Shown piece after piece: positions 1 to 34,903 of a stretch of DNA of 37,617 bases. This DNA is from a virus: positions 1 through 37,617 of IMG/VR virus record IMGVR_UViG_3300044646_002660; one strand, given 5' to 3'. The position numbers were made by a program, and so were the translations under genes. The notes below the pieces were generated by a model that ran no database searches, was not told where the DNA came from, and saw nothing but the letters and a program-made list of their open reading frames with translations. Each line of letters opens with the position of its first letter. Position 1 is the first letter of the stretch.

Positions 1-127
1 CAGCGGCGGCACGGTCGAGAAGCTCTTGAGCGAGGCCTGCGGCGATGACTCCTTCGGCAGCAGTGGCGCGGCTGATCTCGTTGTTGAGGTTCGTTGTGAG
101 GGTCGAATCCGCTGCGGAGCGAAGCGA
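1..127. repeat. 127-bp exact repeat, copy 1 (matches 34588-34714)
   Basis: Bases 1-127 match 34588-34714 base for base and differ at base 128 (a versus g). An exact repeat of 127 bases starting at the very edge is what a de Bruijn assembler run at k=127 leaves at the end of a contig. The coding frame (fibre coiled coil) is the same in both copies. The identity is seen directly; the assembly explanation is inference. Confidence 0.9.
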
Positions 128-316
128 AGCCTCGGCTGCTACGGCGTCAGAAACGAAGGTCTTCTTTGCGAAGACATGCTCGCCGCCGATTGGCAGGACG
201 CCTTCGGCTGTGCCGATGAAAAGGGATTTGTTGAGTGTGTCGAATGCGACTTCACCAGTTTGAAGCGAGACCGGAGAACCGGAACCGCGCTTGATGCGAA
301 TGATAGGATTGGCCAT
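1..316 (-). CDS. Coiled-coil tail fibre protein, partial at window edge
   Basis: The first 105 residues of a fibre protein that runs off the window at base 1. It opens with a short domain (residues 1-50, motifs RIKRGSGSPVSL, GE, KSLFIGTA) typical of phage fibre N-termini, then an alanine-rich heptad-like region (AAEASLRSAADS, NEISRATAAEG) expected to form a trimeric coiled coil. It is allelic to the complete gene at 33986-34903, with its first 127 bases at the edge identical to 34588-34714. Closing the map on that overlap gives an intact 918-bp frame, the same length as the other allele. The start is the ATG at 316, preceded by a C/A-rich leader with no close Shine-Dalgarno sequence. The fibre role is inferred from repeats and neighbours. 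Confidence 0.8.
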   Translation of the reverse strand, partial: MANPIIRIKRGSGSPVSLQTGEVAFDTLNKSLFIGTAEGVLPIGGEHVFAKKTFVSDAVAAEASLRSAADSTLTTNLNNEISRATAAEGVIAAGLAQELLDRAAA

Positions 317-360
317 GTGATTAGTGGGTTGTTGGTTGGGTTTCGTTCTTGGGGAAATTG

Positions 361-588
361 TCAAAAATTGCCGCAGTCGATGACGGGGATAGTGAGCGCG
401 TAGGCGCTTGCTGAGGGCGACCAGCGGTAGGGCATGCCTTCATCCATCGCCATATACAGGCGGTCGGCTTTTCCGATGCTCGGGAAGCTCAAGCGGTTCG
501 GGTATTCGACGATGACGGGAGGCAGGCTGAGGTTGAAGCCAGAGAGATCGAGCGTCTGCGTGATGTTGGATTCGGTGATCGTTGTCAT
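361..588 (-). CDS. Small tail-fibre accessory protein (75 aa)
   Basis: A 75-residue protein starting MTTITES. The start at 588 is chosen because its ATG overlaps the stop of the preceding gene (ATGA) and because the allele at 34960-35196 has the same arrangement; an upstream in-frame ATG at 618 would lie inside the preceding gene. The central motif EYPNR..FPS.G.A...Y.A.D.G.PYRW is a phage fibre pattern seen in many virion adhesins. It probably sits in the adhesin complex next to the coiled-coil fibre, which follows after a 44-base leader. The exact role is unknown. Confidence 0.75.
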   Translation of the reverse strand: MTTITESNITQTLDLSGFNLSLPPVIVEYPNRLSFPSIGKADRLYMAMDEGMPYRWSPSASAYALTIPVIDCGNF

Positions 589-1499
589 GCGTAGACGAGG
601 GTCTCCCGGTTGAGCCACGATCCAATGGCCGAGGCGGTTGAAAGCACGCGACCGGCGGTGTTGAGTGTGCTGCGTTTAATAGTCCAAGTGCTCGCTGTCT
701 CTGGCAGGGCTGGCGCGGCGGGGCGGTTGGCGTTGAGCAGTCGGCCACTGTAGGTGGTGAGGCCGTTTGAGCTTTGGTCGAATGCGTAGATGTAGAGGGT
801 GGGATCGATGGGGCGCTGGACGCTGCGGAGGCCGAGGGCGGTGGCGACGAGGAGTTGACCGGCGGCGGGATACCCATCGAGGAAAATGATTTTTCCCGTG
901 GCGAGGTTCACGATGTAGTCCACGCCTGGCGCTTGGAGGACGCCGTTAAGGGTCACGATGACATGGGAGGGGTTTGCCGAAGCGAGGCCGCTCACGGAGT
1001 AGGTGTCGGCGAGGCCGTCCGCCGTGTGCGTGGTGGTGGTGATTGAAAGTTCGGGCGCAGAGGCGACAACTGCGGCCGCGAAGTCAGTTATCTGGTTCGC
1101 TGTGTGGGTGTGGACGGCTGGAGCTTTGCCGTCGAGCTGGGTCTGGAGGCTGCCGATCGATGCGGCTGCTTCTGCGATGGAGTCGAGCGCGGCGGGGTCC
1201 AGGTTGGCCGTGATGTAGTCGATGCGCTGGCCGAGGGCTGTGTCTGCGGATGCAAGAGCGGCGAGGTCGGCAGGCAGGCCGGTGATCTCGCTCTTAAGGT
1301 GCTGGTGAGGAGATGGCGGGAATGTGGCAGGCTTGCCTGTTATCGCCTCCCACCTCGTAGCCAAGCTGGTGACGACGCCCGCTGCGTCGATGGTCGCAAA
1401 GTCGCCGTTCGGCAGTAGATACAGGCGCTTGCCCGAGGCGGGAACCTCTGGCGCGCTTCCGGCGATGCCGAAATTTATGAACCGGACGAGATTGCTCAT
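585..1499 (-). CDS. Receptor-binding tail fibre protein, split C-terminal partner (304 aa)
   Basis: The N-terminus (residues 1-50, FINFGIAG, LLPNGDFATID) is a short fibre-attachment-like domain. It is followed by two histidine motifs of tail fibres (HQHLKSEITGL, HTHTANQITDF) with coiled-coil residues between, and a C-terminal domain ending in WTIKRSTLNTAGR and GSWLNRETL. From the first histidine motif onward it matches the C-terminal two thirds of the 462-residue protein at 35193-36581, so the same fibre is one gene there and two genes here. HxH motifs in T4-type fibres bind metal ions within trimers. The ATG overlaps the stop of the 176-aa gene (ATGA), so the two halves are translationally coupled. 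Receptor binding is inferred. Confidence 0.8.
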   Translation of the reverse strand: MSNLVRFINFGIAGSAPEVPASGKRLYLLPNGDFATIDAAGVVTSLATRWEAITGKPATFPPSPHQHLKSEITGLPADLAALASADTALGQRIDYITANLDPAALDSIAEAAASIGSLQTQLDGKAPAVHTHTANQITDFAAAVVASAPELSITTTTHTADGLADTYSVSGLASANPSHVIVTLNGVLQAPGVDYIVNLATGKIIFLDGYPAAGQLLVATALGLRSVQRPIDPTLYIYAFDQSSNGLTTYSGRLLNANRPAAPALPETASTWTIKRSTLNTAGRVLSTASAIGSWLNRETLVYA

Positions 1500-2026: not shown

Positions 2027-2044
2027 GCCGCTCTTTCAGCGGCA
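2026..2044 (-). promoter_or_regulatory. Stem-loop abutting the start codon of the 176-aa fibre gene
   Basis: Seven-base arms (TGCCGCT / AGCGGCA) around a CTTTC loop end exactly at the start codon. The other MKLF allele has an equivalent hairpin with a different loop at 36581-36598. Stem preserved while the loop differs suggests an RNA structure controlling initiation; the third paralogue at 5804 lacks it. Confidence 0.5.
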
Positions 2045-2068
2045 TGGGTGTCAAATGCTCTGGCTCGC

Positions 2069-2356
2069 TCAGGGAGCGGGCGGGAGGGATTCCAGTTCGG
2101 CGCGCTTGGCTTCGATGCGGGCGTCGAGTTCGGCCTCGTCGGTGGTCCAGTGGAGCCGCTCGCAGAAAAGGAGGTTTTCGTAGGTGACCTCAGCCTCTTC
2201 AAACATATCCTCCGGGCGTGGCAGTTCGCCGGGGTTGGCGGCGAGGAGCGCGGAGAGATCGCGCAGCCGCCGCTCACTGCGCACGGCGGCGGGGTCCCAG
2301 TAATTCACCCGGCAGGATTGGCCCAGGTAAGCGTCTTTTGTGGTGGTGATGGTCAT
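2069..2356 (-). CDS. Putative tail-fibre assembly/chaperone protein (95 aa)
   Basis: A 95-residue acidic, helix-rich protein (MFEEAEVTYENLLFCERLHWTT, then ELDARIEAKRAELES). It directly follows the 629-aa receptor-binding protein with an ATGA stop/start overlap. A small charged protein encoded immediately after a fibre gene is the usual position of a fibre-assembly chaperone, as with lambda Tfa, but no Tfa-like sequence is visible, so this is inference from context. The shorter cassette at the right end of the window has no counterpart, so it probably travels with the 629-aa protein. Confidence 0.6.
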   Translation of the reverse strand: MTITTTKDAYLGQSCRVNYWDPAAVRSERRLRDLSALLAANPGELPRPEDMFEEAEVTYENLLFCERLHWTTDEAELDARIEAKRAELESLPPAP

Positions 2357-4242
2357 GCAGTAGGCGAGGTGACGACGAGCTGGTCAGCGGCGTTGTAGTA
2401 GCTCAGGCGCGGGACTCCCGAAGAGTTTAGGAAAATTGTTTTGCTATAATTGTTATAAACAAGCGAGGCCGAAGATAAAGAAGTGTTTGTAATAATATTA
2501 GTTCCGATTGTATTATTTCTGAAATAATTGCTAATTATGTTATTTGTAAAATAAGAATCGATTTTATTTCCAATAAAAAAACTTCCGATAGTATTGTATC
2601 GAAATTCACTTCCTATATTATTCCAATAAAAATTAGCTCCAATGTTATTATTTCTAAAAGCATCTCCTATTGTATTACTACCAAAATCTCCAACAATTTT
2701 ATTATTGGAAAAATTTGCGCCAACCGTAACTCTTGAAATAATTTCTATATCATTTGAATTGAAACCATTTCCTATAAGGCAACTATAAAAAATATTTCTT
2801 ATAATGTTGTCTGTAAATGTTCCTAATGTTGTTATACCAATAGATGCTGCCGTAATTCTATTTCCGCTAAATCCATTTCCTATATTATTAAATGCAAAAT
2901 CTCTTTTTATTAAATTTGAATTAAATCCAGTTGATAATTTATTTTTTCTAAGGGCAGGACCAAAAATATTGCCTGCACATTTACCTTCAAAAGTATTATC
3001 CGAAGCCTGTGACCCTACTGTATTGTGCCAAAAAGTATCAGCTATATTGTTTTCAAACATTGAATGGATAATATTTTTACCGCAATTTTGCCCAAAGATA
3101 TTATCAATTATATAATAGCCAAGAATATTTCTATCAAATACATCACCTGTTTTTAAACCAATTGTAGATTTAAAAATATTAGAACTTGAATTGCTTCCAA
3201 GAACTATATTTTTAACTCCTTGTGTAAATATATTACTATGGCTTCCAGCTCCTATTTTCACATAAGCACTAGTTTCTGAAAAAACGCCAACATCTTCTGC
3301 TGTGGTTGTAAATGTTGGTTTTTGTATTCTTGAAGAAGTTAATGGTGGCAGATTTATGAGGTATTGCCAATTATTATTGAATTCGCTTATTGGTTTATAA
3401 GCAATGAATCCCCAAGATTCATCTGTTGGAAAATATGTTAACCCTTCGTTATAATCTGAAACTGGTTGCCAATTAAAAAAATTACTTAAAGGAACATTTA
3501 TGTTATCCGAAATTGCAAAATACAATTTATTGTTTGACTTTACAACATCGAGTTCTTTATAATTTACTGAAGAACTCCATTCCGATATAGTAGACAAATC
3601 AGGGCGACAACAATTTACTGTGATATGCCTAAAATCATATGGCATATCAATATCCCATTTATTATCTATCCTTCTAAAGATTAAGCCTTTGATTCCTGTA
3701 ATGGATACAGAATTGTTTAGATACCCCCAATTATAGGATGTAGTTGCTTCAAAATCATAATAAATTGTGTCTGTTGGATACAGGTCGGAATATGCTATTG
3801 GCGAGAACTTATTAACCGCGATTGCAAGCACATTTAATGGTTCAAGGACTGGGCTTGTTTTTACGGTCGTGTCATTGATGCTTTGGTTCCACCATTTAAG
3901 CTGGAAATCCGTGATCTTGTAATACTGCCCAGGCACGAGCTGGCTGGCGTCTTTGAGCGCTTTCAGCTCGGCATAGGTTTTGGAAATGATCAGCGCGCCT
4001 TCTGGCACGCCGCCGGATGCTGTGGTCTTTTCGACAAAATTCGCATCGGCGGTGCCGTCGCGGAACCAGTATTCGGTAACGGCGCCGGAGGTTTCGACTC
4101 CGACTGTTAAGCCCTTGTAGCGCGTGGCGGCAGGGATGTCGGCGAGCGCGGCGGCGGTGCTGGCGTAGGGGCCGTATTTGGCATCGATGGGCTTGGCGGC
4201 TCCTACGACGATTCCGGCTGAGAGTTCGATTCCGGTTGGCAT
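2353..4242 (-). CDS. Beta-helix receptor-binding protein with AT-rich foreign core (629 aa)
   Basis: Residues 1-120 are GC-rich phage sequence with a fibre-type segment (YASTAAALADIPAATRYKGLTV ending in W.RDGT) and an ITDFQLKWW motif. Residues ~120-600 are written in strikingly AT-rich codons and end in about 250 residues of a short repeat of the form N.IG..F..N, the pattern of a parallel beta-helix or beta-solenoid. The last ~25 residues return to phage codon usage (VPRLSYYNAADQLVV). The mosaic shows a receptor- or glycan-binding core acquired from a low-GC source between resident ends. The start overlaps the stop of the 520-aa gene (TAATG). Similar repeats occur in glycan-binding tail proteins of gut phages; substrate unknown. 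Confidence 0.8.
   Translation of the reverse strand: MPTGIELSAGIVVGAAKPIDAKYGPYASTAAALADIPAATRYKGLTVGVETSGAVTEYWFRDGTADANFVEKTTASGGVPEGALIISKTYAELKALKDASQLVPGQYYKITDFQLKWWNQSINDTTVKTSPVLEPLNVLAIAVNKFSPIAYSDLYPTDTIYYDFEATTSYNWGYLNNSVSITGIKGLIFRRIDNKWDIDMPYDFRHITVNCCRPDLSTISEWSSSVNYKELDVVKSNNKLYFAISDNINVPLSNFFNWQPVSDYNEGLTYFPTDESWGFIAYKPISEFNNNWQYLINLPPLTSSRIQKPTFTTTAEDVGVFSETSAYVKIGAGSHSNIFTQGVKNIVLGSNSSSNIFKSTIGLKTGDVFDRNILGYYIIDNIFGQNCGKNIIHSMFENNIADTFWHNTVGSQASDNTFEGKCAGNIFGPALRKNKLSTGFNSNLIKRDFAFNNIGNGFSGNRITAASIGITTLGTFTDNIIRNIFYSCLIGNGFNSNDIEIISRVTVGANFSNNKIVGDFGSNTIGDAFRNNNIGANFYWNNIGSEFRYNTIGSFFIGNKIDSYFTNNIISNYFRNNTIGTNIITNTSLSSASLVYNNYSKTIFLNSSGVPRLSYYNAADQLVVTSPTA
2420..3880. other. 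AT-rich island inside the 629-aa fibre gene
   Basis: About 1.46 kb of A+T-dominated sequence in a genome that is otherwise GC-rich, with both boundaries inside a continuous reading frame. It encodes the beta-helix and the domain before it. No insertion-sequence ends, transposase or recombinase accompany it, so exchange by homologous recombination at conserved ends is the simplest explanation. Confidence 0.85.
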
Positions 4243-5804
4243 TAGGTGTTCCTGAGTTCGATGTTGGCGGCGGAGTTCGTGAGCGCTCCGGCGGAGGTGT
4301 GGATTTTGTAACCTTGCGTCCAGAGGGCGGTGGTGACGCTGAGGGTGGTGACGGGCTGGAAAACGACGGTGATCGCGCCGTTATCCAGCGCGGTGACGAA
4401 ATACCGGGTCTTGGTCGTGCTGGTGCTGGGGTAGGCGATGGCGAGGAATTGGGCGCTGGGGGCGTAGGGGATCGTGAGCGTGCCGGTGGAGTCGGCGATG
4501 ACTTTGGTGGCGGTGCCGTTTTCGATCGCGGCGACCATGGCGGCTGCGCTGATCGGGCTGGAGGAACGGAGGTGGTAAAATGGATGGACTCCGGTGATTG
4601 CGGGTGCGCTGGTGCTGTCGGTTGCTGTGCCTGCGGCGCGGGAGGCGGCGAGGTTGGTGCCAGAGACGGATTTGTTGTCGAAATAGGTGCCGGTGCCTGC
4701 GGCGTGCGCTGCGGTGACGGCCCAGTTGTTCGAGCCGGAGACGACGGCGGTGGTGAAGGCAAGCGTATTGCCTGGCTGGGTGGTGGAGGAAATGCCGGTT
4801 CCGGTGAAGGTGTAGCCTGTGGCGTCGCCGACGAGGGGGTTGGCATTTGTGGAGCCGTTGCCGTCAAGGATAGTGCCGCGTGTGAAGGTGGCGGTGAGAG
4901 TGCGGGCGATGCTGCTGCCGACCTCGAGCACGCCGCTGGCTCCGCTCACGCCGAGGGTGATGGATTTTGCGGAGCCGACCGAGGCGAGGATGGTCGGGAA
5001 AAGGATGTCGTCCAGGACTTGGACGAGGTTCTTGGACTTCCACGAAGAGGCTGGTGCGGCGGGAGCGCCACCGACTGAGACGCTGACGACGCCATCGGCG
5101 ACCGTGGTGTTGTAGGCCGTGGCGAGGGTGTTCGAGGTTGAGGTGATGCCGGAGTTTGCTGTGACGGAGATAGCCGCCTGCGGGGGAGCCACGGCAGCGA
5201 CGGCAGCGGCGAAGTCAGTGATCTGGCTGGCGGTGTGGGTGTGGGGTGAAGGCGGGAAGGTGGCGGGTTTGCCAGCAAGATTTGCCCAGGTGAAGTTGGC
5301 GGCAGCCCATGCGCGGATCGCGTCCCAGACGCGCAGCGGAGTCGTCCACTTTTCGTTACTCGTTCCGGCCGCAGCTTCGGCGAGGGTTGCCTTGAGGCTT
5401 GGCACCGAGGCAGGGATGCCTTCGTCGCCGAGTATGACGGAGTTTTGCAGCTCCACGGCGAGCGTGGCGGTGCGCGTCTCTTCTCCTGGGCGAGTGTATT
5501 TGACCTCGAGTAATGCGGAGGCGCTGGCAGTGTTGCCGGGGAAAAGCTCCTCGACTGGCACGGTGTAGAGATTGAGCGTGCCGTCGGTCTCGGCGAGGGC
5601 GAGGAATTGAGGATCGGAGAAGCTGCGCTTAAGCGCGGTCTTGAGCGTGGTCCCGGCAGGTGTCGGCACGATGGCCAAGCGCTCGACGAATACCACCTCC
5701 ACATCCACGACATCGCGGCGTTTGAAAAAAACGCGCGCCAGCGGCACGGAGGAGTTCGGTGCCTTGAGGAATCGGCGGGTGGCGAGATCGATGTAGAATT
5801 TCAT
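4242..5804 (-). CDS. Tail fibre protein with shared N-terminal module (520 aa)
   Basis: Residues 1-165 are the shared fibre-attachment module (MKFYIDLATRRFLKA, VFFKRRDVVDVEVVFV, NSVILGDEG). Residues ~170-205 carry the fibre motif GKPATFPPSPHTHTASQITDF, found once here, twice in the 304-aa protein and in related form three times in the 462-aa protein. The remaining ~310 residues are threonine-, serine- and alanine-rich beta-structure (TGTGISSTTQPGNTLAFTT, YHLRSSSPISA, a C-terminal YFVTALDNGAITVVF) unlike the other copies, probably an alternative receptor-binding end. The gene is 7 bases downstream of the cysteine-rich gene and overlaps the 629-aa gene. It has no equivalent in the shorter cassette. 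Confidence 0.8.
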   Translation of the reverse strand: MKFYIDLATRRFLKAPNSSVPLARVFFKRRDVVDVEVVFVERLAIVPTPAGTTLKTALKRSFSDPQFLALAETDGTLNLYTVPVEELFPGNTASASALLEVKYTRPGEETRTATLAVELQNSVILGDEGIPASVPSLKATLAEAAAGTSNEKWTTPLRVWDAIRAWAAANFTWANLAGKPATFPPSPHTHTASQITDFAAAVAAVAPPQAAISVTANSGITSTSNTLATAYNTTVADGVVSVSVGGAPAAPASSWKSKNLVQVLDDILFPTILASVGSAKSITLGVSGASGVLEVGSSIARTLTATFTRGTILDGNGSTNANPLVGDATGYTFTGTGISSTTQPGNTLAFTTAVVSGSNNWAVTAAHAAGTGTYFDNKSVSGTNLAASRAAGTATDSTSAPAITGVHPFYHLRSSSPISAAAMVAAIENGTATKVIADSTGTLTIPYAPSAQFLAIAYPSTSTTKTRYFVTALDNGAITVVFQPVTTLSVTTALWTQGYKIHTSAGALTNSAANIELRNT

Positions 5805-5810
5805 CGGCGG

Positions 5811-6230
5811 TCAATTTTTCGGCTCTGTCAAACTCGGCACAGCCTCCCACTTGCCGAGCGGGCAGCGCTCGGTCGCCATGCGGAGCTTTGCCCAGGTCGA
5901 GCATTTGCAAATCTGGCAGCGGCCGGTGCCTCCCATCGCAGCGGCGTCCCATTCGGGGCAGGCGCGGCAGGTGGCTTCTCGGGCGGCGAGGATGTCTGGC
6001 GGTGTGGCGGTAAAGCCCGAGGCGGTCCAGTTGAGGAGGGATTTGCCGAGGCTCGCCGCTTGTTGCGGGAGGGTTGGAGGCGCGGCTTTGACCTGCGCGG
6101 CGTGATCTGGCGTGTTCTCGCCGCGCTCGATGCAGTGGGCGCATACGCCTTTGCTGGGGCGTCCGCCGTGCATGCCGAGGCCGCAGGCGTTTGCGTGAGC
6201 TGAGATCGGCGTGGCGTGTGGGCAGGTCAT
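5811..6230 (-). CDS. Cysteine-rich putative metal-binding tail protein (139 aa)
   Basis: Starts MTCPHATP at 6230; this start overlaps the previous stop (ATGA) and matches the allele at 36604-37029, which begins in the same way. It carries paired cysteines (GVCAHC, ATCRACPEW, RCQICKCSTW) and a final ERCPLGKW, arranged like zinc- or Fe-S-binding knuckles. The two alleles keep every one of these cysteines. It lies between the tail-tip protein and the fibre array, so a structural metal site in the tail tip or a maturation factor is likely. The C-terminal segment resembles a domain I have seen in phage tail regions but cannot name. Confidence 0.75.
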   Translation of the reverse strand: MTCPHATPISAHANACGLGMHGGRPSKGVCAHCIERGENTPDHAAQVKAAPPTLPQQAASLGKSLLNWTASGFTATPPDILAAREATCRACPEWDAAAMGGTGRCQICKCSTWAKLRMATERCPLGKWEAVPSLTEPKN

Positions 6231-6856
6231 GAGATGGCAATTACCGCCGAATAATTTACCGTGCTGCATTGAGTCTCATAAATTGGCTGGCTCATCTCTT
6301 CATCGTAACCGACTTCAATGCGAAGGCACTGCCCTACCGGAAAAGTGAATGAATGTGTCCCGATTAAATTAGCGAGTGGAATAGTTTCACCGCCGAGCCC
6401 CCCTGCCGAAAAATCAGTGGATCCGCTGAAACTATAACTTGCTCCAAGCGAAATTTCGCATCCGCCAGCACCTTTGGTAATTGAAAAACCAACTCCAACT
6501 CCAACCATAATAACTCCCCCTCCATAAATATATGAGGCACTGTTTCCTGCCCCGCAGAGACTGCCGCTCGCCGTGCCTGCGACTTCTGCATCGAGGTCTT
6601 GAGTGAAATATTCAACCGGATCGAATGGATCAACTATCGAGACAGAGTGCGATGGGAGAGTGAAGGTCATTTGACCACCACTGATGTTCCCGCCGATTGT
6701 TATGGAGGAGGCTCCTGTTAGCTCTTCTACAGAGGGACATCCGCCACATAGACCAGGCGGCACCTGCCCACAACATCCGCACGACACCGCGCGGAGGCCA
6801 GCCTCGCCGTCGGTCTTAATTTTTATGGAATTGGCAGCAGATCTTCCGAGAGTCAT
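6227..6856 (-). CDS. Tail-tip protein, variable (209 aa)
   Basis: The N-terminal 45 residues are cysteine-rich (CGCCGQ, CGGCPS), followed by a long beta-strand-forming region rich in glycine, serine and threonine (YIYGGGVIMVGVGVGFSIT) and the motif LIGTHSFTFPVG near residue 170. The partial protein at the right edge (37026-37617) occupies the same position and keeps the GTHS motif, but is otherwise very different. This suggests a fast-evolving surface-exposed tail-tip component. The start and end both overlap neighbouring genes by ATGA. No family is recognised. Confidence 0.7.
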   Translation of the reverse strand: MTLGRSAANSIKIKTDGEAGLRAVSCGCCGQVPPGLCGGCPSVEELTGASSITIGGNISGGQMTFTLPSHSVSIVDPFDPVEYFTQDLDAEVAGTASGSLCGAGNSASYIYGGGVIMVGVGVGFSITKGAGGCEISLGASYSFSGSTDFSAGGLGGETIPLANLIGTHSFTFPVGQCLRIEVGYDEEMSQPIYETQCSTVNYSAVIAIS

Positions 6857-7850: not shown

Positions 7851-10184
7851 TTAGGCGGTGAGCGCTGCCACTGGCAGACGCGGTTCGATTTTTTCGAGGA
7901 GAATTTTAATCGCATCCACCATGCCTTCGAGGCCGCCCTTGGTAGCCGTGCCGCTCGTCTCCCCTGGCGCGGTCTTCGCGCCATCTTGGCCAGGGCGGTC
8001 GGGTAGCTTGGTCGAGTCGCCAAACTTGTCGGCGACCGCGCGGCCTTCGCGCACAGCTTTGATGCGGGAGGTGAAATCTTTGCTGCTTTCACCGAGCTGC
8101 TGGCTCAAGCCGAAATCTTTGCCGATTTCGGCCATGCTCCGGCGGTCCATATTTTTGCCCGTGCCGCGAATGCTGGCTTCGACTTCGTTTTGGGCGAGCT
8201 TGTCCGCAGTCTTCCGAGCGCCTTCAAAGTCTCCGCGCTGGATTTGCTCTTGCGCCTGTTTTTCCAACCGCCCGCCTTTGTCCACGGAGTCTTTTGCTTC
8301 GGCTTCTTTGATGTTTTCCAAGATCGATCTTGAAAGAACCGCTTGTTTGTTAAATTCCGCCTGCTCCTGGCGAGCGCGCGCGATCTGGTCCGCAAATTTA
8401 GCAGCTTCCGATTTGCCCATTCCGGCAGAGATGGCCTGCTTGAGAGCGGCATTGTAGTCCTTCTTGTATTGGACGGCTTTTTGTTCTTCCTCGTTGCCGC
8501 TGATCTGAGCCTTTAAACTCTGTAGGTCGAGTTCGAGATTTTCGCGCAGATCGGCTTGGCGCTCGGCTTGCTTGGCGGCGGCCTCTTTTTCTTTTTCCGC
8601 CCGCACGGTTTTTATGTCTTTGATCAGCTCTTCGAGTTCTTTGGATTTTTCCAGTTGCTCGTTGAGTTTTCCGATGCCCTGCGTTTGTTCTTCGACCTTC
8701 CCAGTGATCGAATCGGTGAGTGAAAAATTGCTTTCGAGAAGCGGCTTTGTTCCTGCGATTTCGCTGCTGACATCCGACCAACCATCAGCAATGCCGGTGA
8801 GTTGAGGTTTAAAATCCGCGCCTAGGGAGAAAGATTCGGCCATACTTTGGCCTGCCGTGTCGGCTTTTTCTCCAGCTCCCTTAAATTCTCCGGCGGCTTC
8901 GGCCGCTGCAAGGCCGGTCTTTGTAAGCTCAGCGGAGGCAGTTGATGCCCCTTCGCTTGTTTTATTTATCGCAGCATTGGCTTCAGTTTGGGTTTGAGCG
9001 ACATTTTTCCCTTTATTCGCCAGGGCAGTGAGTGCGTATCCGAAAGGCGTGAAATTATTAAACGCCTGCGCCATGTAGTAATTGAAGCCATTGAGAGACT
9101 CGGCCACTGCATCATAAACGACAGATTGGCCTTTGGCAGGTGTAGCGCTTAGGACTGAAAACAATTCTTTCGAGTATTGAATCGCGCCTTTCATCGCGGG
9201 GATGAATCCTTCGTTGAGTGAGCTGATGACCGTGCCGGTTGGCGTAATCAGACCCTCGCCAAGCGCGGTTTTGAGATTGGTAAACTCCGCCCCGAGGATT
9301 TTTGTCTGCGCTGCAAGCCCATCGCTTGTTCTTTCAAAGTCCCCTTGGGCGTCGCCGCTTTGTGAGAGTATTGCATTATATGCAGCAAGGCTTCTCGTTT
9401 GAGCGTCAAGAGCCCCCGTGCCGTCATAGAGGCCAAGCTTCATCGCTTCGGCCTTTAGCGTGGCATCGTCTAGAAGAACGCCAAACTTTCTGATGGGTTC
9501 AGATTCTCCGCGCAATGCAGAACCAATCGCCGAGATTGCCTCTTCCACAGAGGTATTCTTAAAAGATGCAAAATCTGTCGCTAGCTGAACAAGGTTTTTA
9601 GAGAATCCAACAAGGCTCCCTCCGCTCAATCCTGCGGCCTTCCCAAATATAGCAAAAGAGGCAGCAGCTTCCATGGCCTGCTGGGTTGTCTGACCGAGGC
9701 TTGTTGCTGCTTCTTTAGCCCAAGCTCGAATCTGATCCGCATTTTTTCCAAAAATTACACCAACCTGCGAAGATGTCTCACTAAGATCAGAAGCCAGCTT
9801 GATGGCGTCCCCCACAAATAAAAACGCCTCACGGAAGCCCATGACAGCGCCGTAGGCCGCCGTCAGGGATGCTGTCATTTTGCCAATCTGACCTGCCACA
9901 GAGCCAAAGCCCGTGGATGCCTGCTCGGCCTGCACGGAATCGATCGCGGCGTCGAGCTGCTTGAAATCAGCGGCGGCAGAGTCGGCAGACTGACCCATGC
10001 TCTTGAGCCGCTTTTCCATGGACTCCTGTTGTCCAATGCGGCGCATGGTGTCTTCAAGTTGATCGAGCGTAAGATTGCCGCTCTTGACTTGGCTTTTCAG
10101 CCCAAGGATTTCGTCTTGGACCTGCTTGAGAGCATTACTGAGGCCGACATCTTTGGCCCCAAATTCGACCGTTACATCGCTCAT
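7851..10184 (-). CDS. Tail tape measure protein (777 aa)
   Basis: At 777 residues this is the longest gene in the tail module and has the expected composition: an N-terminal coiled coil (residues 1-75, LKQVQDEILGLKSQVKSG), a hydrophobic region (ASLTAAYGAVMGFREAFLFV, later ASFAIFGKAAGLSGGSLVGF) and a long charged coiled coil (residues ~520-700, KELEELIKDIKTVRAEKEKEAA). Tape measure proteins set tail length and help DNA entry; about 0.15 nm per residue would give a tail of roughly 115 nm. It overlaps the 256-aa gene by ATGA, close downstream of the tail chaperone frameshift genes. Confidence 0.92.
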   Translation of the reverse strand: MSDVTVEFGAKDVGLSNALKQVQDEILGLKSQVKSGNLTLDQLEDTMRRIGQQESMEKRLKSMGQSADSAAADFKQLDAAIDSVQAEQASTGFGSVAGQIGKMTASLTAAYGAVMGFREAFLFVGDAIKLASDLSETSSQVGVIFGKNADQIRAWAKEAATSLGQTTQQAMEAAASFAIFGKAAGLSGGSLVGFSKNLVQLATDFASFKNTSVEEAISAIGSALRGESEPIRKFGVLLDDATLKAEAMKLGLYDGTGALDAQTRSLAAYNAILSQSGDAQGDFERTSDGLAAQTKILGAEFTNLKTALGEGLITPTGTVISSLNEGFIPAMKGAIQYSKELFSVLSATPAKGQSVVYDAVAESLNGFNYYMAQAFNNFTPFGYALTALANKGKNVAQTQTEANAAINKTSEGASTASAELTKTGLAAAEAAGEFKGAGEKADTAGQSMAESFSLGADFKPQLTGIADGWSDVSSEIAGTKPLLESNFSLTDSITGKVEEQTQGIGKLNEQLEKSKELEELIKDIKTVRAEKEKEAAAKQAERQADLRENLELDLQSLKAQISGNEEEQKAVQYKKDYNAALKQAISAGMGKSEAAKFADQIARARQEQAEFNKQAVLSRSILENIKEAEAKDSVDKGGRLEKQAQEQIQRGDFEGARKTADKLAQNEVEASIRGTGKNMDRRSMAEIGKDFGLSQQLGESSKDFTSRIKAVREGRAVADKFGDSTKLPDRPGQDGAKTAPGETSGTATKGGLEGMVDAIKILLEKIEPRLPVAALTA

Positions 10185-15520: not shown

Positions 15521-15698
15521 GGCGCTGCTGCCGGATGTAGTCGGCGAGGTTCAGTTGAACTGGCGGCTCTGCCTTTGGCTGAGGAGCGGGCGGCACGCTG
15601 TAGAGCGTGCGCCCGAGCTTAGCGCGCAGGGCATTCAGAAACGGCAGGTGCTCAGGGTTGGGCTTGAGTGCGGGCGGTTTCATGCGAGGGGAATACAT
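15507..15698 (-). CDS. Small proline-rich protein after the portal (63 aa)
   Basis: A 63-residue protein (PPALKPNPEHLPFLNALRAKLGRTLYSVPPAPQPKAEPP, then LADYIRQQRH). It overlaps the portal C-terminus and the 78-aa gene in other frames. The start could be the ATG at 15698 or at 15683. Coupled overlaps and ordinary codon usage support it, but no function can be given. Confidence 0.5.
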   Translation of the reverse strand: MYSPRMKPPALKPNPEHLPFLNALRAKLGRTLYSVPPAPQPKAEPPVQLNLADYIRQQRHAKA

Positions 15699-21810: not shown

Positions 21811-22978
21811 TGCCTTTCATTTGCCTTTCTAGTTCGCCAGCAGCAGAGTGCAGCCAAGCGTCAAATTTTCCGTAAAACCGGCACGCGTGTGCCGTCCGCG
21901 CCGTATCCGGTTGAGGATACTGCCCATCCCTGTCCGCTGCCGCTGAGACCCGCACGGCCTCCGCACGCCAACTCCTCAACACATCCCTCCGAGGCATGAT
22001 GTCCTCGAGCGTCAAATCCGGTGCCGACGGCGCGAAATAAAGGAGCTTTTGCTCCTTCTGCCCACGCCAGCACGCAGGCAGTCGAGTCAACCGAACAGCC
22101 GAGAGAGCCCCCGGATCCGCCCCAGTCACCACCAGTTGCATCACCTTCCGCTTCGTAGCATCCCACTCCGCCTTAGTCGCCGCATCCACACGCACCAAGG
22201 CGTGCACCGAGCGCCCGCCAGAAGTCGTAACGGCAGCGATGTTAGGCACGAGCCGAGCCAAAGCCCCCAGCCACAAACGCACCGGGGCCTCATCGCTCTC
22301 GAGAACCATCCATCGCCAGGACAACACCGACTCCTCCGACCGGCGCGACATCTTTCCCAGGCGAGGATTCGGGCGCGACTTGCCATCGACCGGTTGAGCG
22401 AGAAACCAAATCCCCTCCGGTCCCCGAGTCGGAATCCTCTCCACCGGCCAGATCGCCTGCCCCTGCGATTTATACTCCGAAAAAACAACAACCCGCTCAC
22501 CAGCAGCCGCATTGTAAAGACGAGCGAGGAAATCCTCAGCCGACACCGTAGCCGGATCCACCTCAGAGCGATTCGCCAGCCAAGGGAGATCAACCTCCTC
22601 AGCCAAATCCCCAGCGACCCGCCGCAATGCCTCCACATCGAACTGAGGCTTCGGCCGAGGTTTACTCACCGGCCGCCGTTCCAGGCTCCCCCCCCTCGGA
22701 GCCTCAGCCCCTTGAAGTAAATACCCATCAGCTCCAGGACCATTGAGAGCAGAGTCGATCTTATGTTCCAGTTCACCAGTAGTCCACTTCTCCGCATTCC
22801 CCTGGTTCCACTCCTCGAGAAGCGCCAACGCATCCGAATGAGGAAGCCGAAAACCCTTCACAAGAGCCTTTGCCACAAGCAGAGTGTGCGTGTGCCCACC
22901 AGCCCCAGAAATTGCCGGACCAATCTTCGAGACATACCGGCGCGCCCTCTCCACAACCGGAACTTTTTCCTTGCTCAC
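21782..22978 (-). CDS. Primase: PriCT-like N-domain plus primase-polymerase-like core (398 aa)
   Basis: Residues 9-80 (ARRYVSKIGPAISGAGGH, VKGFRLPHSDALALLEEWN, ELEHKIDSAL) match the PriCT-type domain found in replication proteins of phages and mobile elements in PVC-group bacteria. Residues ~220-310 resemble an archaeo-eukaryotic primase core (VLESDEAP, TTSGGRSVHALVRV, ADPGALSAVRLTRLP). It would synthesise primers for the helicase encoded next. The start is a GTG at 22978 preceded by a good GGGAGGGA Shine-Dalgarno. It is divergent from the integrase across attP. Catalytic acids (E227, D229) are the best candidates, not confirmed. Confidence 0.75.
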   Translation of the reverse strand: MSKEKVPVVERARRYVSKIGPAISGAGGHTHTLLVAKALVKGFRLPHSDALALLEEWNQGNAEKWTTGELEHKIDSALNGPGADGYLLQGAEAPRGGSLERRPVSKPRPKPQFDVEALRRVAGDLAEEVDLPWLANRSEVDPATVSAEDFLARLYNAAAGERVVVFSEYKSQGQAIWPVERIPTRGPEGIWFLAQPVDGKSRPNPRLGKMSRRSEESVLSWRWMVLESDEAPVRLWLGALARLVPNIAAVTTSGGRSVHALVRVDAATKAEWDATKRKVMQLVVTGADPGALSAVRLTRLPACWRGQKEQKLLYFAPSAPDLTLEDIMPRRDVLRSWRAEAVRVSAAADRDGQYPQPDTARTAHACRFYGKFDAWLHSAAGELERQMKGNEQTYGHNK

Positions 22979-23034: not shown

Positions 23035-23201
23035 TGTGGGAGTCGTGTGGGAGTCTCCCGCAAGTGCAACAAAATCAAGAGCTAAACTTGCCCTGTGGTG
23101 TAATGGTAAGCAATATCCAGAAAAAACTTTCGTTGATTTGCAACTACTTACAACTTTATCCCACTTTAAAATCCTTGAGGCGTGTGGGAGGTTGTGGGAG
23201 T
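23035..23201. other. Candidate attP: paired arm-type repeats around a tRNA-like core
   Basis: The octamer TGTGGGAG occurs at 23035, 23046, 23183 and 23193: two tandem pairs, each with 10-11-bp spacing (one helical turn), on either side of a tRNA-like segment at 23089-23112. Direct repeats flanking a core next to a tyrosine integrase are the layout of lambda-type attP arms. The arms lie in the 233-base gap between the divergent primase and integrase genes. Integration has not been shown. Confidence 0.6.
23089..23112 (+). other. tRNA 5'-half-like segment, possible attP core
   Basis: TGCCCTGTGGTGTAATGGTA has the acceptor strand, T-G spacer and D-arm (GTG TAATGGTA) of a bacterial tRNA, most like tRNA-Gln. 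Downstream sequence (AATATCCAG, then A-rich) has no anticodon stem, T-arm or 3' acceptor strand, so it is only a half. Phages often integrate in tRNA genes, though most use the 3' half; a 5'-half core would be unusual. Confidence 0.45.
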
Positions 23202-23211
23202 TTCGGTGTGC

Positions 23212-24237
23212 ATGGCTTACATCACAAAAACGAGGAAGAGCGTTTATTGGGTTCTGAGGTATCGTTGCCTTGATACTGGCAAGTGGCGGGACCGCTCCAC
23301 GCGGTGTCGGCATGATGATGCCAAGCAGACTCGGGCGGCACAGCGGATGGCTGAGGAGGCGAGTGCTTTGGAGGCCAAGGTGGGGCCGGAGGCCTCGGGA
23401 GATTTCTCGGCGTGGGCGCTGGATTACATACGGCGGCACTACACGAGCGAGTCGAGCCGGAAGCGCTACGAGGCCGCGTGGATGCGGATTCTGGAGTGGG
23501 CGCGGGTGCGAGGCATACGGCATCCCGCCCATGTGCGCTACGAGCATGCCACCGATTTTTTGGAATGGCGCAAGGCTCAGGAGGCCAGCCACAATACCGC
23601 CCGCCTCGAGCTGAAGTTTCTCTCCTTCATCCTCCAAGAGGCCCTGCGTCGGGAGCTGATTCAGAAGAATCCGATTGCCCTGGCTAAAGTCCCACGCACT
23701 CCCGCAAAGGTGAAGCCGGAGTTCGATTCGGCGGATTTCAAGAAAGCGCGGGCGGCCTTCACCGCACGGAAGAGCGCGCCGTGGATGCTCACGGCCTTTG
23801 AGATTTGCGCGCATCTCGGCTGCCGCTTCCGCGAGGCCGAGCTGGCCCGCGAGGATGTGGACTTCGAGCAGCGCATCATTTGGATCACAGACTCGAAGCG
23901 CAAGCCGGGCGACCCGCGCAAGCGCTTCAGCGTCCCGTTGCCCGATTCGCTCGCCAAGCACTTGCAAGCCGTCTTTAAAAAGCGCGACCGCACCACGCCG
24001 GATCTGCGCTTTGGGGAGCATAACAGGCAGTTCAACTTGACTCTGAAGGAGGCCACCGGAGCGACATCCCACAGCCTCCGCGTCTCTTTCGTGACTCGTT
24101 GTCATCGGGCAGGCCTTAGCGAGAGCCAAGCGATGCGGCTGGTGAATCACTCCACCCGCCTTGTGCATGCGATTTATTCTCGCCTGTCCGTAGAGGATGC
24201 CCGGGCAGCGGCTGCGAAGGTCCTCCCGCCGATTTAG
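23212..24237 (+). CDS. int: Tyrosine recombinase (phage integrase, 341 aa)
   Basis: The start is the ATG at 23212 (MAYITKTRKS), with GGGAG 11 bases upstream; an upstream GTG at 23182 is less likely because it lies in an arm-type repeat. An arm-binding N-terminus (1-60) is followed by a core-binding SAM-like domain (~62-155). The catalytic domain has Arg205 (GCRFREAEL), Lys229, His287-x-x-Arg290 (HSLR), His313 and nucleophile Tyr322 (HAIYSRL), the complete family set. It catalyses site-specific integration and excision at attP immediately upstream. The only long early gene on the plus strand here, it overlaps the excisionase-like gene tail to tail. Confidence 0.93.
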   Translation: MAYITKTRKSVYWVLRYRCLDTGKWRDRSTRCRHDDAKQTRAAQRMAEEASALEAKVGPEASGDFSAWALDYIRRHYTSESSRKRYEAAWMRILEWARVRGIRHPAHVRYEHATDFLEWRKAQEASHNTARLELKFLSFILQEALRRELIQKNPIALAKVPRTPAKVKPEFDSADFKKARAAFTARKSAPWMLTAFEICAHLGCRFREAELAREDVDFEQRIIWITDSKRKPGDPRKRFSVPLPDSLAKHLQAVFKKRDRTTPDLRFGEHNRQFNLTLKEATGATSHSLRVSFVTRCHRAGLSESQAMRLVNHSTRLVHAIYSRLSVEDARAAAAKVLPPI

Positions 24238-26885: not shown

Positions 26886-27037
26886 AGGTTGAGAAGTGAG
26901 ATGTGGATGGCTGGAATGCCGTGCTGGAGGAAAAAGCGGGTCTTTGCGGAGCTGAAGCCAGCGCACCGCAGGAGGGTGCGGATCTGGCCGCGCACAGGGT
27001 CGAGGCCCTCGCAGAGGTAGAGGCGGGGGTGTTTCAT
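26882..27037 (-). CDS. Small basic protein (51 aa)
   Basis: Starts MKHPRLYLCEGLDPVRGQIRTLLRCAGFSS at 27037, overlapping the Bro-N stop (ATGA). It has two cysteines and basic residues, and ends ISLLNL. It belongs to the chain of coupled early genes. No function can be assigned. Confidence 0.55.
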   Translation of the reverse strand: MKHPRLYLCEGLDPVRGQIRTLLRCAGFSSAKTRFFLQHGIPAIHISLLNL

Positions 27038-27816
27038 TCGGGTTGAGCGAGTTGGGTGAGAGTGAAGACGCGGGAGCGGTTCTTGCCGTGGCGTTGAAAA
27101 AGGATGCCGTCGAAGGCCTTGCTGCACTGCCGGTCACAGAGCAGGCCGAAGCGGGAGGCGATGGAGGGGCTCAGGATCGTCTTGGTCTTGAGCCATGTGG
27201 AGAAGAGGCCCTCGGCCACGGCCACTTGCCGCATCTCCAGGCTGCTCCACTCCTTGTCCTGGTCGCGGCTCCAGAGTGCGGCCACGAGAGCGGAAAATTC
27301 CTTGTGCTCCCCGTCCAGCACCTCGAGCGCTTGGGTGGTCTCGGTGGCTTGGCCCAGCTTCCAGCCATTGCGGTAGTATTGGCCCACGAGCCCTGCCATG
27401 GCCGTGGCCTTCTCCACCGACATGCGGCCCTCGTAGAGATCGCAGATCGCCAGTTCCAGCACCTGCTGGATGCGGCCGATGCCGGTGAGCACCGCATACC
27501 CGCCCGTGCGCCGGATCGCTGGCAGCACCTCGCCAGTCACCCACTTACGGAAAGCCTTCGCCTCCGGCTTGCGGGATTTGAAGATTAAGGCATACAGGCC
27601 GGACTCGGAAATCGTCTGAATCTTTTGAGCCCCGCCAAGGGTGTCGGCAATAGCGACACCCTTTTCATCATCTTCGAGCCCTTGCACAGCATCGCGGTGG
27701 TTTGAAATATCCAAAGCACGGCAGACATCGGCGGCGACGAACCATGTTTGCCCCGCGCGATCCATGGCTCGAACAGGCGTGCTCTTGAAATCAAATGTCT
27801 GGATTTCGCCTTTCAT
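27034..27816 (-). CDS. Bro-N antirepressor (260 aa)
   Basis: Residues 5-105 form a BRO-N domain: VRAMDRAGQTWFVAADVCRAL, NHRDAV..L.DDEKGV, TISESGLYALIFKSRKPEAKAFRKWVTGEVLPAIR. Residues ~110-260 form a second, Ant-type domain (KATAMAGLVGQYYRNGW, a basic end VFTLTQL). Antirepressors of this kind bind phage repressors and promote the lytic cycle; here the targets may be the RHH regulators at 28.3-29.0 kb. It overlaps genes at both ends by ATGA. Confidence 0.85.
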   Translation of the reverse strand: MKGEIQTFDFKSTPVRAMDRAGQTWFVAADVCRALDISNHRDAVQGLEDDEKGVAIADTLGGAQKIQTISESGLYALIFKSRKPEAKAFRKWVTGEVLPAIRRTGGYAVLTGIGRIQQVLELAICDLYEGRMSVEKATAMAGLVGQYYRNGWKLGQATETTQALEVLDGEHKEFSALVAALWSRDQDKEWSSLEMRQVAVAEGLFSTWLKTKTILSPSIASRFGLLCDRQCSKAFDGILFQRHGKNRSRVFTLTQLAQPE

Positions 27817-28678: not shown

Positions 28679-29011
28679 ATGAGCGCAGAAGAAAAATTTG
28701 TAGGCTTTCGGGCCAATCCAACCCTTGTTGAACAAATCAAAAAGCGTGCCAAGTCAGAGCACCGAAGCCTTGCAGCCCATATGAGGTGGCTTGTAGAGCA
28801 GGATTTGTGGCAAAACAATATGCCCACACTCATGGCCGCAGAGACCCCCGAGAGCGTTGACTTGCCACAGGACAAGACTCAGGGAAAATACCAGACTGCC
28901 GCAGCGACGAAGGCGGCAGAGCGTGCTGGTGTCAAGACTATCAGGCCATCGAAGAGTTTCGATGGTTCGTCCTCAACAGCTACGACGGGCAACTCCCACC
29001 AGGTTGGGTAG
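28679..29011 (+). CDS. Ribbon-helix-helix regulator B (110 aa)
   Basis: Residues 1-45 (EKFVGFRANPTLVEQIKKRAKSEHRSLAAHMRWLVEQDL) fit the RHH pattern (strand, helix A, helix B) and resemble RHH regulator A. Residues 46-110 are a flexible, basic and serine-rich tail (AAATKAAERAGVKTIRPSKSF). There is no Shine-Dalgarno sequence; the inverted repeat 28659-28677 abuts the ATG. It is the first gene of the plus-strand immunity operon and may be the lysogenic repressor, with A as the opposing switch protein. No HTH repressor of the CI type is visible anywhere in the window. Confidence 0.75.
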   Translation: MSAEEKFVGFRANPTLVEQIKKRAKSEHRSLAAHMRWLVEQDLWQNNMPTLMAAETPESVDLPQDKTQGKYQTAAATKAAERAGVKTIRPSKSFDGSSSTATTGNSHQVG

Positions 29012-29362: not shown

Positions 29363-29365
29363 AAA

Positions 29366-29479
29366 CCACGGGAGGCCCTGCTTCTATGCGGTTCCAGAGC
29401 TGGAGACTTGTCTGACCAGAGCGCGACCCGCGCTTCCGCCGCATTCCCACTTTATTGCTCCCGTGGCGTGATTTTTTTT
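29366..29479 (+). ncRNA. Candidate ~100-nt multi-helix RNA with 3' U-tract
   Basis: A 9-bp closing stem (29366-29374 CCACGGGAG with 29458-29466 CTCCCGTGG) encloses a 6-bp stem (29386-29391 with 29439-29444), a bulged hairpin (CTGGAGA 400-406 with TCT 411-413 and CCAG 416-419), and AGCGCG-ACC-CGCGCT (29420-29434). An oligo-T run follows at 29472-29479. Pairings are perfect at each arm. No coding frame of quality lies here. It is on the plus strand between two plus-strand genes; a regulatory or antisense RNA or an elaborate terminator are the options. Confidence 0.55.
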
Positions 29480-29496
29480 AGATATGTCGCTTTGTC

Positions 29497-29852: not shown

Positions 29853-30015
29853 CGGCGTTAAAATAGCACATGGCTCCGTGCTCAATGAATCGAGCCTCCA
29901 TGCCGGAGGCTTTCCCGGCATCAATGAATTTCCTTTGAGCGATCTGCTTCCAGTTTGAAATCAGCGCGAGCAATTCGCTGCTGGGGATCTCGGTGCGGGC
30001 GGGTGGATTGCTCAT
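29794..30015 (-). CDS. Small late protein after the endolysin (73 aa)
   Basis: Starts MSNPPARTEIPSSELLALISNWKQIAQRKFIDAGKAS at 30015, overlapping the endolysin stop (ATGA). Residues 28-70 form a charged helical region (ARFIEHGAMCYFNAANELEELLKL). It is the last gene of the late operon, converging with the immunity operon. No family is recognised. Confidence 0.6.
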   Translation of the reverse strand: MSNPPARTEIPSSELLALISNWKQIAQRKFIDAGKASGMEARFIEHGAMCYFNAANELEELLKLHQAAAEPLP

Positions 30016-30491
30016 GCCAGGATGTCGATGCGGTCGGCCACGCGCTGGCGGAGGCTGGCGAGGAGTTCGCGTTCGGTCATGTTGGCGCTCCACGGCGGGC
30101 GGAATTGGTAGTGCGGCTCGTCGACGAATTTCCAACGGCCGCCCCACTCGAAGCCGAGGCTTTCGCCTAGTGGGCCAAGTTCGCGGTAGAGTGCGTGATC
30201 TCCGTGGTAGGTTTTGCCGTCTTTGCTGAAGACGCCGAGATCGATTGCGAGGCCGAAATTGTGCATGCTGTGGCCTGCTGGAGCCTTGGTGACGATCTTG
30301 CCGGGGGCTGTGCGGCCTTTGGCGTAGAGGGCGGCCTGCTCGTCGTAGGATCGGAGGCCGCAGATGCATTTCACATCGAGGTTGCGCTGGGCGGCGAGGT
30401 TCTTGGCGGCGGCGACGAATGTGGAGGCGCGCTGGTGCAGGTCGGGGTGGAGTGTTGCCAGGTTGCGCTCGCTGCGGTCGTCGAGTTTCAT
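30012..30491 (-). CDS. Endolysin: M15 peptidase (159 aa)
   Basis: An L-alanyl-D-glutamate-type peptidase of the M15C family. Motif GLRSYDEQAALYAKGRT (residues 45-61), zinc site SMHNFGLAID (75-84; His77, Asp84) and DEPHYQF (124-130; His127). The protein has no cell-wall binding domain and no signal peptide, so it needs a holin. It cleaves peptide crosslinks of peptidoglycan at lysis. It overlaps the 26-aa membrane peptide gene and is preceded by holin and spanin-like genes. Confidence 0.92.
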   Translation of the reverse strand: MKLDDRSERNLATLHPDLHQRASTFVAAAKNLAAQRNLDVKCICGLRSYDEQAALYAKGRTAPGKIVTKAPAGHSMHNFGLAIDLGVFSKDGKTYHGDHALYRELGPLGESLGFEWGGRWKFVDEPHYQFRPPWSANMTERELLASLRQRVADRIDILA

Positions 30492-30568
30492 GGGCGAAGG
30501 AGGAAGGCGAGCATGGCGAATCCGAATGAGATTAGGATGAGCCCAAGGGCGATGTGGCCGGGTTTCAT
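30488..30568 (-). CDS. 26-aa membrane peptide of the lysis cassette
   Basis: MKPGHIALGLILISFGFAMLAFLLRP: nearly the entire peptide is one transmembrane helix. The ATG overlaps the holin stop (ATGA) and the stop overlaps the endolysin ATG (ATGA), so all three are translationally coupled. It could be a holin regulator (antiholin-like) or a second pore peptide. It is below the size normally annotated. Confidence 0.6.
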   Translation of the reverse strand: MKPGHIALGLILISFGFAMLAFLLRP

Positions 30569-30972
30569 TTGGCGTTTACTCCTCTGATTTTTTCGAGGGT
30601 TCGGAGGGTTCCTAATCCGAGCATTCCCAAGAGGGTTGTCATCAACATTTCGGTCGGGAGGGCTATGACTGGAGCGGGTTGTTTTGTGAGGAGCACATAG
30701 GTCCACGAGAAGAGCGGCTGGCCTACGCAGACCCATGCGAAGGAGGCGGCACATACCCAGCCTACGGCGGGTCGCCACCCGGAGACGAAGAGGGAGGCGT
30801 GGGCGGCTTCGGCGGTGTTGGTCTGGCTTTGCTGGGTGGCTTCCTGTGCGGCGATTTCCAGGACGCGAAGCTGCCAGGCTTCTTGCGCTTTGCGCTTCGC
30901 TTCGGTGTCCGGCACGACCTTGTCGATGATCTCGAGGCCGGTGCGGACCATGGCTGGGATGTCCCAAGTCAT
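30565..30972 (-). CDS. Holin, 3-TM GTA-holin family-like (135 aa)
   Basis: The pattern IIDKVVPDTEAKRKAQE, NTAEAAHASLFVSGWRPAVGWVCA resembles the three-transmembrane holin family of gene-transfer agents (GTA_holin_3TM). Three hydrophobic stretches lie at residues 67-83, 86-105 and 107-124. It would form the membrane lesion that lets the endolysin reach the wall. Coupled to a spanin-like gene before it and a 26-aa peptide after it. Confidence 0.85.
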   Translation of the reverse strand: MTWDIPAMVRTGLEIIDKVVPDTEAKRKAQEAWQLRVLEIAAQEATQQSQTNTAEAAHASLFVSGWRPAVGWVCAASFAWVCVGQPLFSWTYVLLTKQPAPVIALPTEMLMTTLLGMLGLGTLRTLEKIRGVNAK

Positions 30973-33208: not shown

Positions 33209-33211
33209 GAC

Positions 33212-33496: not shown

Positions 33497-33515
33497 GGTG
33501 TTTGGATTTTTTGGG

Positions 33516-33896
33516 TTAAGAAAATTGGAGGTTTGTTTTGTTCGACCACGCTCCGGTGGCCGAGGCTTCTTGGGAGGTTGTGCCTGCGGAGTTGAAAATG
33601 GTGCGGGAGATTTCCCAGTTCGGGCTGTCATACACCGAGCCGGTGTTGGGAAATTCTGAATACAGGAGGAAGCCGAGGTAGGTGGTGGTGCCGTCGCTCG
33701 AAATGTCGAAGGCCCAGACGCGGTCGGGGGCGTCTTTGGTTCCGGCCAATTTGTAGACTTCGCCTGTGGAGGGGTTGCGCGTGTAGAGGCGGCGGTCGGC
33801 GTGGTTCACGCAAATCTCGCCGAGGGCGAGGTCGGTCGTGCTCGGGATGCGCCCGGTGACCGTGCTGCGTTTTGGGATGATTTGTGGGTTTGCCAT
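33516..33896 (-). CDS. Compact fibre/RBP protein with shared C-terminal domain (126 aa)
   Basis: The N-terminus PKRSTVTGRIPSTTDLALGEICVNHADRRLYTRN is the GE-type fibre start. The C-terminus (VWAFDISSDGTTTYLGFL, NWEISRTIFNSAG, ATGAWSNKTNLQ) is homologous to the ends of the 304-aa and 462-aa fibres (YAFDQSSNGLTTYSGRLL, IRRSTLNAAGR, ATGSWLNRETL). It is therefore a short fibre tip or a spare copy of the recognition domain. A strong hairpin lies upstream, between it and the coiled-coil fibre. Confidence 0.7.
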   Translation of the reverse strand: MANPQIIPKRSTVTGRIPSTTDLALGEICVNHADRRLYTRNPSTGEVYKLAGTKDAPDRVWAFDISSDGTTTYLGFLLYSEFPNTGSVYDSPNWEISRTIFNSAGTTSQEASATGAWSNKTNLQFS

Positions 33897-33926
33897 GTGG
33901 CGGATTTATTCGGCGGATTTTTTTAA

Positions 33927-33971
33927 ACTCCCCCGCTTGGCGAGGCGCTATGGAGCGCCCCGCCGGGGAGT
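33927..33971 (-). promoter_or_regulatory. Long stem-loop between fibre genes
   Basis: Three stacked helices (ACTCCCC/GGGGAGT, GGCG/CGCC, GGCGCT/AGCGCC) total 17 bp around an ATGG loop, between the coiled-coil fibre and the 126-aa gene. The downstream minus sequence is TTTAAAAAAA, with only three U residues, so it is a poor terminator and may be a processing or stabilising element. Confidence 0.6.
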
Positions 33972-33985
33972 GGTTGCTTTAGGGA

Positions 33986-34903
33986 CTAGTAGCTGCCTCC
34001 ATCGATGACGCTCTCCATCGCGGAGATGCGAAGTTCGTGGTCGGCCACATCGGCTTCGACTGCGCTCAGGCGGCTGTCGGCGCTGGCGTTCTCCAAGGTC
34101 GTGATGCGGTTGCTCAACGAGGTATCGGCTGTCGAACGGGTCGAGCTCTCTGCGTCCAGGTTGGTCTGGACGAGGGCGATGTCGGCTTCGAGGCCGGACA
34201 CGTCGGAAGCGCGGGAAGCGGCTTCCGCAGAGATCGCGGCGATGCGGGCGGACTCTTCGTCCAGGATGTCTTGCTCGGCGGCGCTGACGCGGGTGGTCAG
34301 GGCGCTGAGGTCGCTCGAGACGGTGTCGATGTTGCCTTGGAGGCTGGAGTCGCCGGAGGTGCGGGCGGTCTCTTCGGCGGCGATCGCGGTGTTGATCGAG
34401 GAGATGGCGGATGCCAGGGCGTTGTCGTTCGTGAGATCGACGCTGTTGATGAGGTCGACGATTTCTTTGAAATTATCGGCATCAGCGCTTGATGCAGAAA
34501 GAATTGCGTCGATGCGGCCTTTCTCAGTCAGGATTTTCGCGTCGAGAGCGGAGTCGCCGGAAACGCGCGAAGCGGCCTCTGCCGAAACAGCGGCGGCACG
34601 GTCGAGAAGCTCTTGAGCGAGGCCTGCGGCGATGACTCCTTCGGCAGCAGTGGCGCGGCTGATCTCGTTGTTGAGGTTCGTTGTGAGGGTCGAATCCGCT
34701 GCGGAGCGAAGCGAGGCCTCGGCTGCTACGGCGTCGTCAGCATAGGTCTTCTTTGCGAAGATGTGCTCGCCCGCGATTGCGAGTGGGCCGTTGGCTGTGC
34801 CGATGAAAAGTGACTTGTTTTGCAGGTCCATTGCCAGCTCGCCTGTGGTCAGGGAAACTGGCGAACCGGAGCCGCGCTTGATTCTCAAAATAGGATTGCT
34901 CAT
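33986..34903 (-). CDS. Coiled-coil tail fibre protein, complete allele (305 aa)
   Basis: Residues 1-50: MSNPILRIKRGSGSPVSLTTGELAMDLQNKSLFIGTA. Residues 55-290 are almost continuous alanine/serine/aspartate heptads with repeated units like SAEAASRVSGDSAL, EETARTSGDSSLQGNI, AEQDILDEESARIA. These predict a long trimeric coiled-coil shaft. The last 30 residues (NASADSRLSAVEADVADHELRI) keep the pattern. It shares its first ~105 residues (127 exact bases) with the gene cut at base 1; same length in bases if the map closes. It is preceded by a C/A-rich leader. Confidence 0.85.
   Translation of the reverse strand: MSNPILRIKRGSGSPVSLTTGELAMDLQNKSLFIGTANGPLAIAGEHIFAKKTYADDAVAAEASLRSAADSTLTTNLNNEISRATAAEGVIAAGLAQELLDRAAAVSAEAASRVSGDSALDAKILTEKGRIDAILSASSADADNFKEIVDLINSVDLTNDNALASAISSINTAIAAEETARTSGDSSLQGNIDTVSSDLSALTTRVSAAEQDILDEESARIAAISAEAASRASDVSGLEADIALVQTNLDAESSTRSTADTSLSNRITTLENASADSRLSAVEADVADHELRISAMESVIDGGSY
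34588..34714. repeat. 127-bp exact repeat, copy 2 (matches 1-127)
   Basis: This stretch lies inside the coding sequence of the complete coiled-coil fibre gene and equals bases 1-127. Immediately downstream (34715 onwards) the sequence drops to roughly 80% identity with 128-316. It is the branch point of two alternative cassettes. Confidence 0.9.

Follow-up and report, generated by a model that had tools for sequence, protein, structure and literature searches.

The window, that is, the whole 37,617-nucleotide stretch analyzed here (IMG/VR record IMGVR_UViG_3300044646_002660), is very probably a "lasso" path in a k = 127 metagenome assembly graph, consisting of the circle of one phage followed by a branch of a second phage. 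Starting at a branching 127-mer inside a tail-fibre gene, the path would make one turn of an entire temperate phage genome of 34,587 bp, come back to the same 127-mer, and then exit for 2.9 kb through the fibre allele of another phage co-occurring in the sample. The circle would arise from sampled phage DNA that was circular, concatemeric or permuted, with the attP joint intact and host DNA absent, and the branch from recombination of fibre cassettes among related phages, such that the two genomes would match exactly over at least 127 bases on one side and be ~20–25% divergent on the other. A preliminary description of the window had proposed a closed 34,587-bp circle plus an extra branch; this reading, of a complete circular-map temperate phage genome with a strain branch attached, is largely right and is borne out by the return to the starting sequence, the gene order, the intact fibre gene and the fit in size.

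Bases 1–127 (the first copy of the branching 127-mer, or graph vertex) are identical to 34588–34714 (the second copy, which lies inside the fibre gene at gene positions 190–316), and the two sequences first differ where base 128 is A and its counterpart, 34715, is G, exactly as initially described. All other exact direct repeats in the window are 53 bp or shorter. Beyond the split, both copies remain homologous in blocks, at ~73–89% identity, so that they represent the same gene of two alleles; given a background identity of 77%, the probability of 127 consecutive matches is ~4e-15, and the tract is thus not a chance match. When 34587 is joined to 1, a fibre open reading frame (ORF) of 918 bp results, which starts with MANPIIRIKRG; the uninterrupted fibre allele of the window (33986–34903, minus strand), which starts with MSNPILRIKRG, is also 918 bp long, so the earlier claim that closure restores an in-frame gene of the length of the other allele holds. 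Across the closure, the gene order is collinear with that of relatives, the circle has a complete gene set without redundancy, and it is of a size consistent with that of closed relatives. The 127-bp return, the intact fibre ORF and the collinear relatives together delineate positions 1–34587 as one full turn of the unit circle of a temperate tailed phage. In IMG/VR, the record is classed as linear, which is to be expected if only exact end-to-end repeats count because the repeat here is not end to end. Exact 73-mer scans with the vertex and the branch end found no second record of the same population in viral contigs, a set that may lack records from the same sample. The weaker part of the preliminary description is its statement that the DNA is an excised or packaged form: the circular map fits excised, replicating, concatemeric and permuted packaged DNA alike. 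We infer that the whole 34,587 bp is carried on single molecules.

The length of the repeat is itself informative. Related fibre proteins were retrieved from at least 80 viral loci and related terminases from 53, and nineteen long contigs among these relatives were examined whole. An exact 127-bp repeat is present at the contig end in eight of them (G001 to G007 and G028); in G006 and G007, it is found at both ends, making these contigs plain circles of 35,983 and 35,935 bp, and the remaining six diverge beyond the repeat, like the window. Some other contigs have repeats of 100 or 126 bp. Metagenome assembly with metaSPAdes has been published with k = 33, 55, 77, 99 and 127 (PMC7171226), and the authors of CheckV noted that circular templates give end repeats of length k (PMC8116208). 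The identification of 127 bp with the k of the assembler in the assemblies of such contigs, for which the preliminary description had noted only that 127 is a common largest k-mer, is accordingly well supported. Special conservation of the 127-bp tract was considered as the cause of the identity and rejected: across 69 sequences, conservation in this tract does not exceed that in the remainder of the gene. Because the tract is not specially conserved, 127 identical bases against the 77% background appear to point to recent exchange or to a common left side.

The branch (34715–37617) is an alternative allele of the fibre locus, 73–89% identical in segments to positions 128–2056 and 5197–6234 of the circle. 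It supplies the 5' part of the branch allele of the fibre gene (a 305-aa ORF, with related genes in the fibre-protein loci mentioned above) and encodes a fibre or tail-repeat protein (35193–36581, minus strand; PF12789) that is homologous to 585–1499 and 1496–2026; the fibre-associated protein of the circle allele (585–1499, minus strand) matches PF12789 just under the cut-off. The two alleles also differ in gene content: the branch has no counterpart of the gene at 2353–4242 (minus strand), and the terminal gene of the branch is missing from the circle. The 2353–4242 product, a 629-aa protein rich in N/I/G repeats, many of them of the N-N-x-I-G type, has no match in Pfam and is possibly a receptor-binding protein with a repeat fold, judging from its sequence. 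All 48 differences between the 918-bp alleles fall within the initial 189 bases. Third codon positions account for 27 of these differences and are likewise where differences are most common between the neighbouring gene pairs of the locus. Because the differences are of the coding type, both alleles are real coding alleles rather than products of assembly error, and the branch is a genuine diverged fibre-locus allele, most likely from a co-occurring phage. Taken at face value, a contig that is linear as printed and carries two fibre regions could also be a single, truly linear genome with two fibre loci, derived from tandem related prophages or from duplication of the locus. This is highly improbable: the fibre gene is single-copy in each of 15 relatives, host genes are absent between the two fibre regions, where attP is unsplit, and the length of the repeat coincides with k in the eight other contigs. 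The branch would therefore belong to another genome, not to a second locus of the circle genome.

The exact identity of the flanks over at least 127 bp and the natural occurrence of recombinants between the circle (A) and branch (B) alleles are also compatible with a programmed switch, in which the phage would alternate fibre genes within a lineage by means of a dedicated recombinase. We give this scenario almost no credence, given that the circle contains neither inverted repeats, nor a serine recombinase, nor a silent second copy, and that the difference in gene content together with the 20–25% divergence is better explained by exchange between phages. An invertase-type fibre switch in particular was sought and rejected, as no inverted repeats flank the cassette and no resolvase-family match was detected in the window. 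A further reading is possible, if somewhat doubtful: a single phage population with a common backbone might carry two interchangeable fibre cassettes, exchanged through recent homologous recombination within the fibre gene, in which case the branch point would be the recombination junction.

Examination of the relatives shows that broken circles and mosaicism are recurrent in this group, and that the layout of the branch is a normal one in other phages. The nearest near-complete relative, G011, with a terminase 92% identical to that of the window, keeps collinearity with the circle over a stretch that begins in the fibre locus, passes 34587 and reaches approximately base 1206; the two ends of this contig fall within the fibre locus. 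The terminal 127-mers of G011 are both found in L068, a contig from the same metagenome, ordered end to start with 332 bases between them; G011 and L068 thus jointly define a circle of ~33.4 kb that was broken where its DNA is common to a sister phage. This break is the same process as that in the window, in an independent sample. G014, from another metagenome, has a terminase just 28–30% identical to that of the window. Over bases 163–542, it matches the circle allele at 99–100% identity and remains mostly close to it up to ~1330, and it switches to the branch allele from ~36268, with 97–100% identity over 37057–37617; left of approximately base 63, its identity to the shared sequence is 53–91%. 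G014 is an A/B recombinant and hence demonstrates that these cassettes recombine in nature and move between backbones.

The same mobility lends some weight to another alternative, namely, that the loop itself is chimeric, with allele A (from base 128) and the sequence to the left of 34587 coming from different co-resident genomes connected through a short identical tract, in which case no single phage would have a circle of exactly 34,587 bp. Exact tracts are common to such phages, and fibre cassettes recombine between backbones; furthermore, the vertex is passed twice, so the graph alone leaves the in-edges and out-edges unpaired. Nevertheless, we consider a chimeric loop unlikely, although less so than two fibre loci in one genome or a programmed switch, because the genes of the circle form a complete set free of redundancy, in a unit of the size of closed relatives, and circular genomes of such layout would be implied even then.

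Two additional contigs from the group display further variants of this organization. G005 (IMGVR_UViG_3300043424_000660, 38138 bp), also a circle-plus-branch contig, carries two different terminases (751–2385 and 35588–37186, respectively, 36% and 30% identical to that of the window), both joined to near-identical DNA of the portal region; by sequence comparison, mosaicism in this contig appears to extend to the packaging genes. G028 (IMGVR_UViG_3300027746_000023, 57528 bp) comprises approximately one and a half turns, with bases 1–127 present again at 38657, the last 126 bases present again at 25883, and divergent homologous DNA between, so that its length misstates the genome size.

The circle encodes the complete head and tail module expected of a temperate tailed phage, including the gpA-type large terminase subunit (17422–19131; PF05876 and PF20454), a portal protein of the lambda family (15652–17097; PF05136, 9.7e-51), a ClpP-type head maturation protease (14183–15268) and the tail tape measure protein (7851–10184; phrog_7025, 1.3e-24), all on the minus strand. 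An endolysin (30012–30491) and a holin (30565–30972) are encoded on the same strand. All recognizable genes in the window are phage genes, and searches of the window detected no tRNA and no match to Rfam, in line with the earlier statement that host genes are absent. An Arc-like DNA-binding protein (28679–29011, plus strand; weak match) and, on the opposite strand, a BRO-N/Ant-type antirepressor (27034–27816) could make up a lysis-lysogeny control region. Positions 29366–29480 (plus strand) encompass a conserved non-coding element, predicted to form a closed stem that encloses inner hairpins, with a U run at the end; among six sequences, changes on both sides affect 4 of the 24 predicted pairs, including an A-U to U-A replacement in the outer stem. 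The element, which has no Rfam match, is a candidate small phage RNA under the predicted fold.

The attachment site is internal to the circle, as the preliminary description maintained. A tyrosine integrase was identified at 23182–24237 (plus strand; the start is possibly at 23215) by a six-frame Pfam search (PF00589), and upstream of it, at 23089–23110 (plus strand), lies a 22-bp putative attP core, TGCCCTGTGGTGTAATGGTAAG, which resembles the 5' end of tRNA-Gln and is unchanged in seven related contigs with variable flanks. A prophage relative (terminase 85% and integrase 65% identical) in a Chthoniobacter flavus metagenome-assembled genome (MAG) is bounded by two copies, at 4742 and 34898, of a 21-bp repeat, TGCCTCGTGGTGTAACGGTAG, and the 34898 copy is the start of an intact tRNA-Gln; the genes outside the prophage, read from translations by eye, are release-factor-2-like on the left and leucyl-tRNA-synthetase-like on the right. 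The integrase and the homologue of 21782–22978 are located at opposite ends of this prophage whereas the window has them next to each other, with the core between, indicating that the attP of the window is unsplit. A Burkholderiaceae MAG contig (L200) was also considered as a tRNA-Gln prophage and set aside: a phage relative is present, and no tRNA-Gln arrangement was seen. Judging from the MAG relatives, the host of the phage probably belongs to Verrucomicrobiota.

The window phage thus resembles tRNA-integrating temperate tailed phages, with a tyrosine integrase next to a tRNA-like attP core and a prophage relative at tRNA-Gln. Among deposited phages, there is no equally close cultured member, no nucleotide match to window positions 1–25000 and no match to the fibre protein; the best terminase match is Akkermansia phage Moulinsart (ON453896), which is distant from the window phage (34% identity) and likewise has a host in Verrucomicrobiota. 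The contig itself resembles those with the k-length direct terminal repeats described with CheckV (PMC8116208), in that a k-long repeat marks the return to the first k-mer of a circular genome, but differs from them in that the path continues past the return along a diverged branch, which places the second copy of the repeat inside the contig instead of at its end.

The circle-plus-branch outcome is a known kind of assembly result, ordinary as a phenomenon; its value here lies in a new, complete temperate phage genome and in the fibre-cassette mosaic that it documents. Such contigs recur in this phage group, slip past completeness tests based on end repeats, and overstate length and gene counts (here, 37,617 versus 34,587 bp). 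Through the analysis, a record listed as linear becomes a complete circular genome for a group of temperate phages with integrated relatives in Verrucomicrobiota MAGs, and the fibre locus attests to recombination among phages whose backbones are unrelated.
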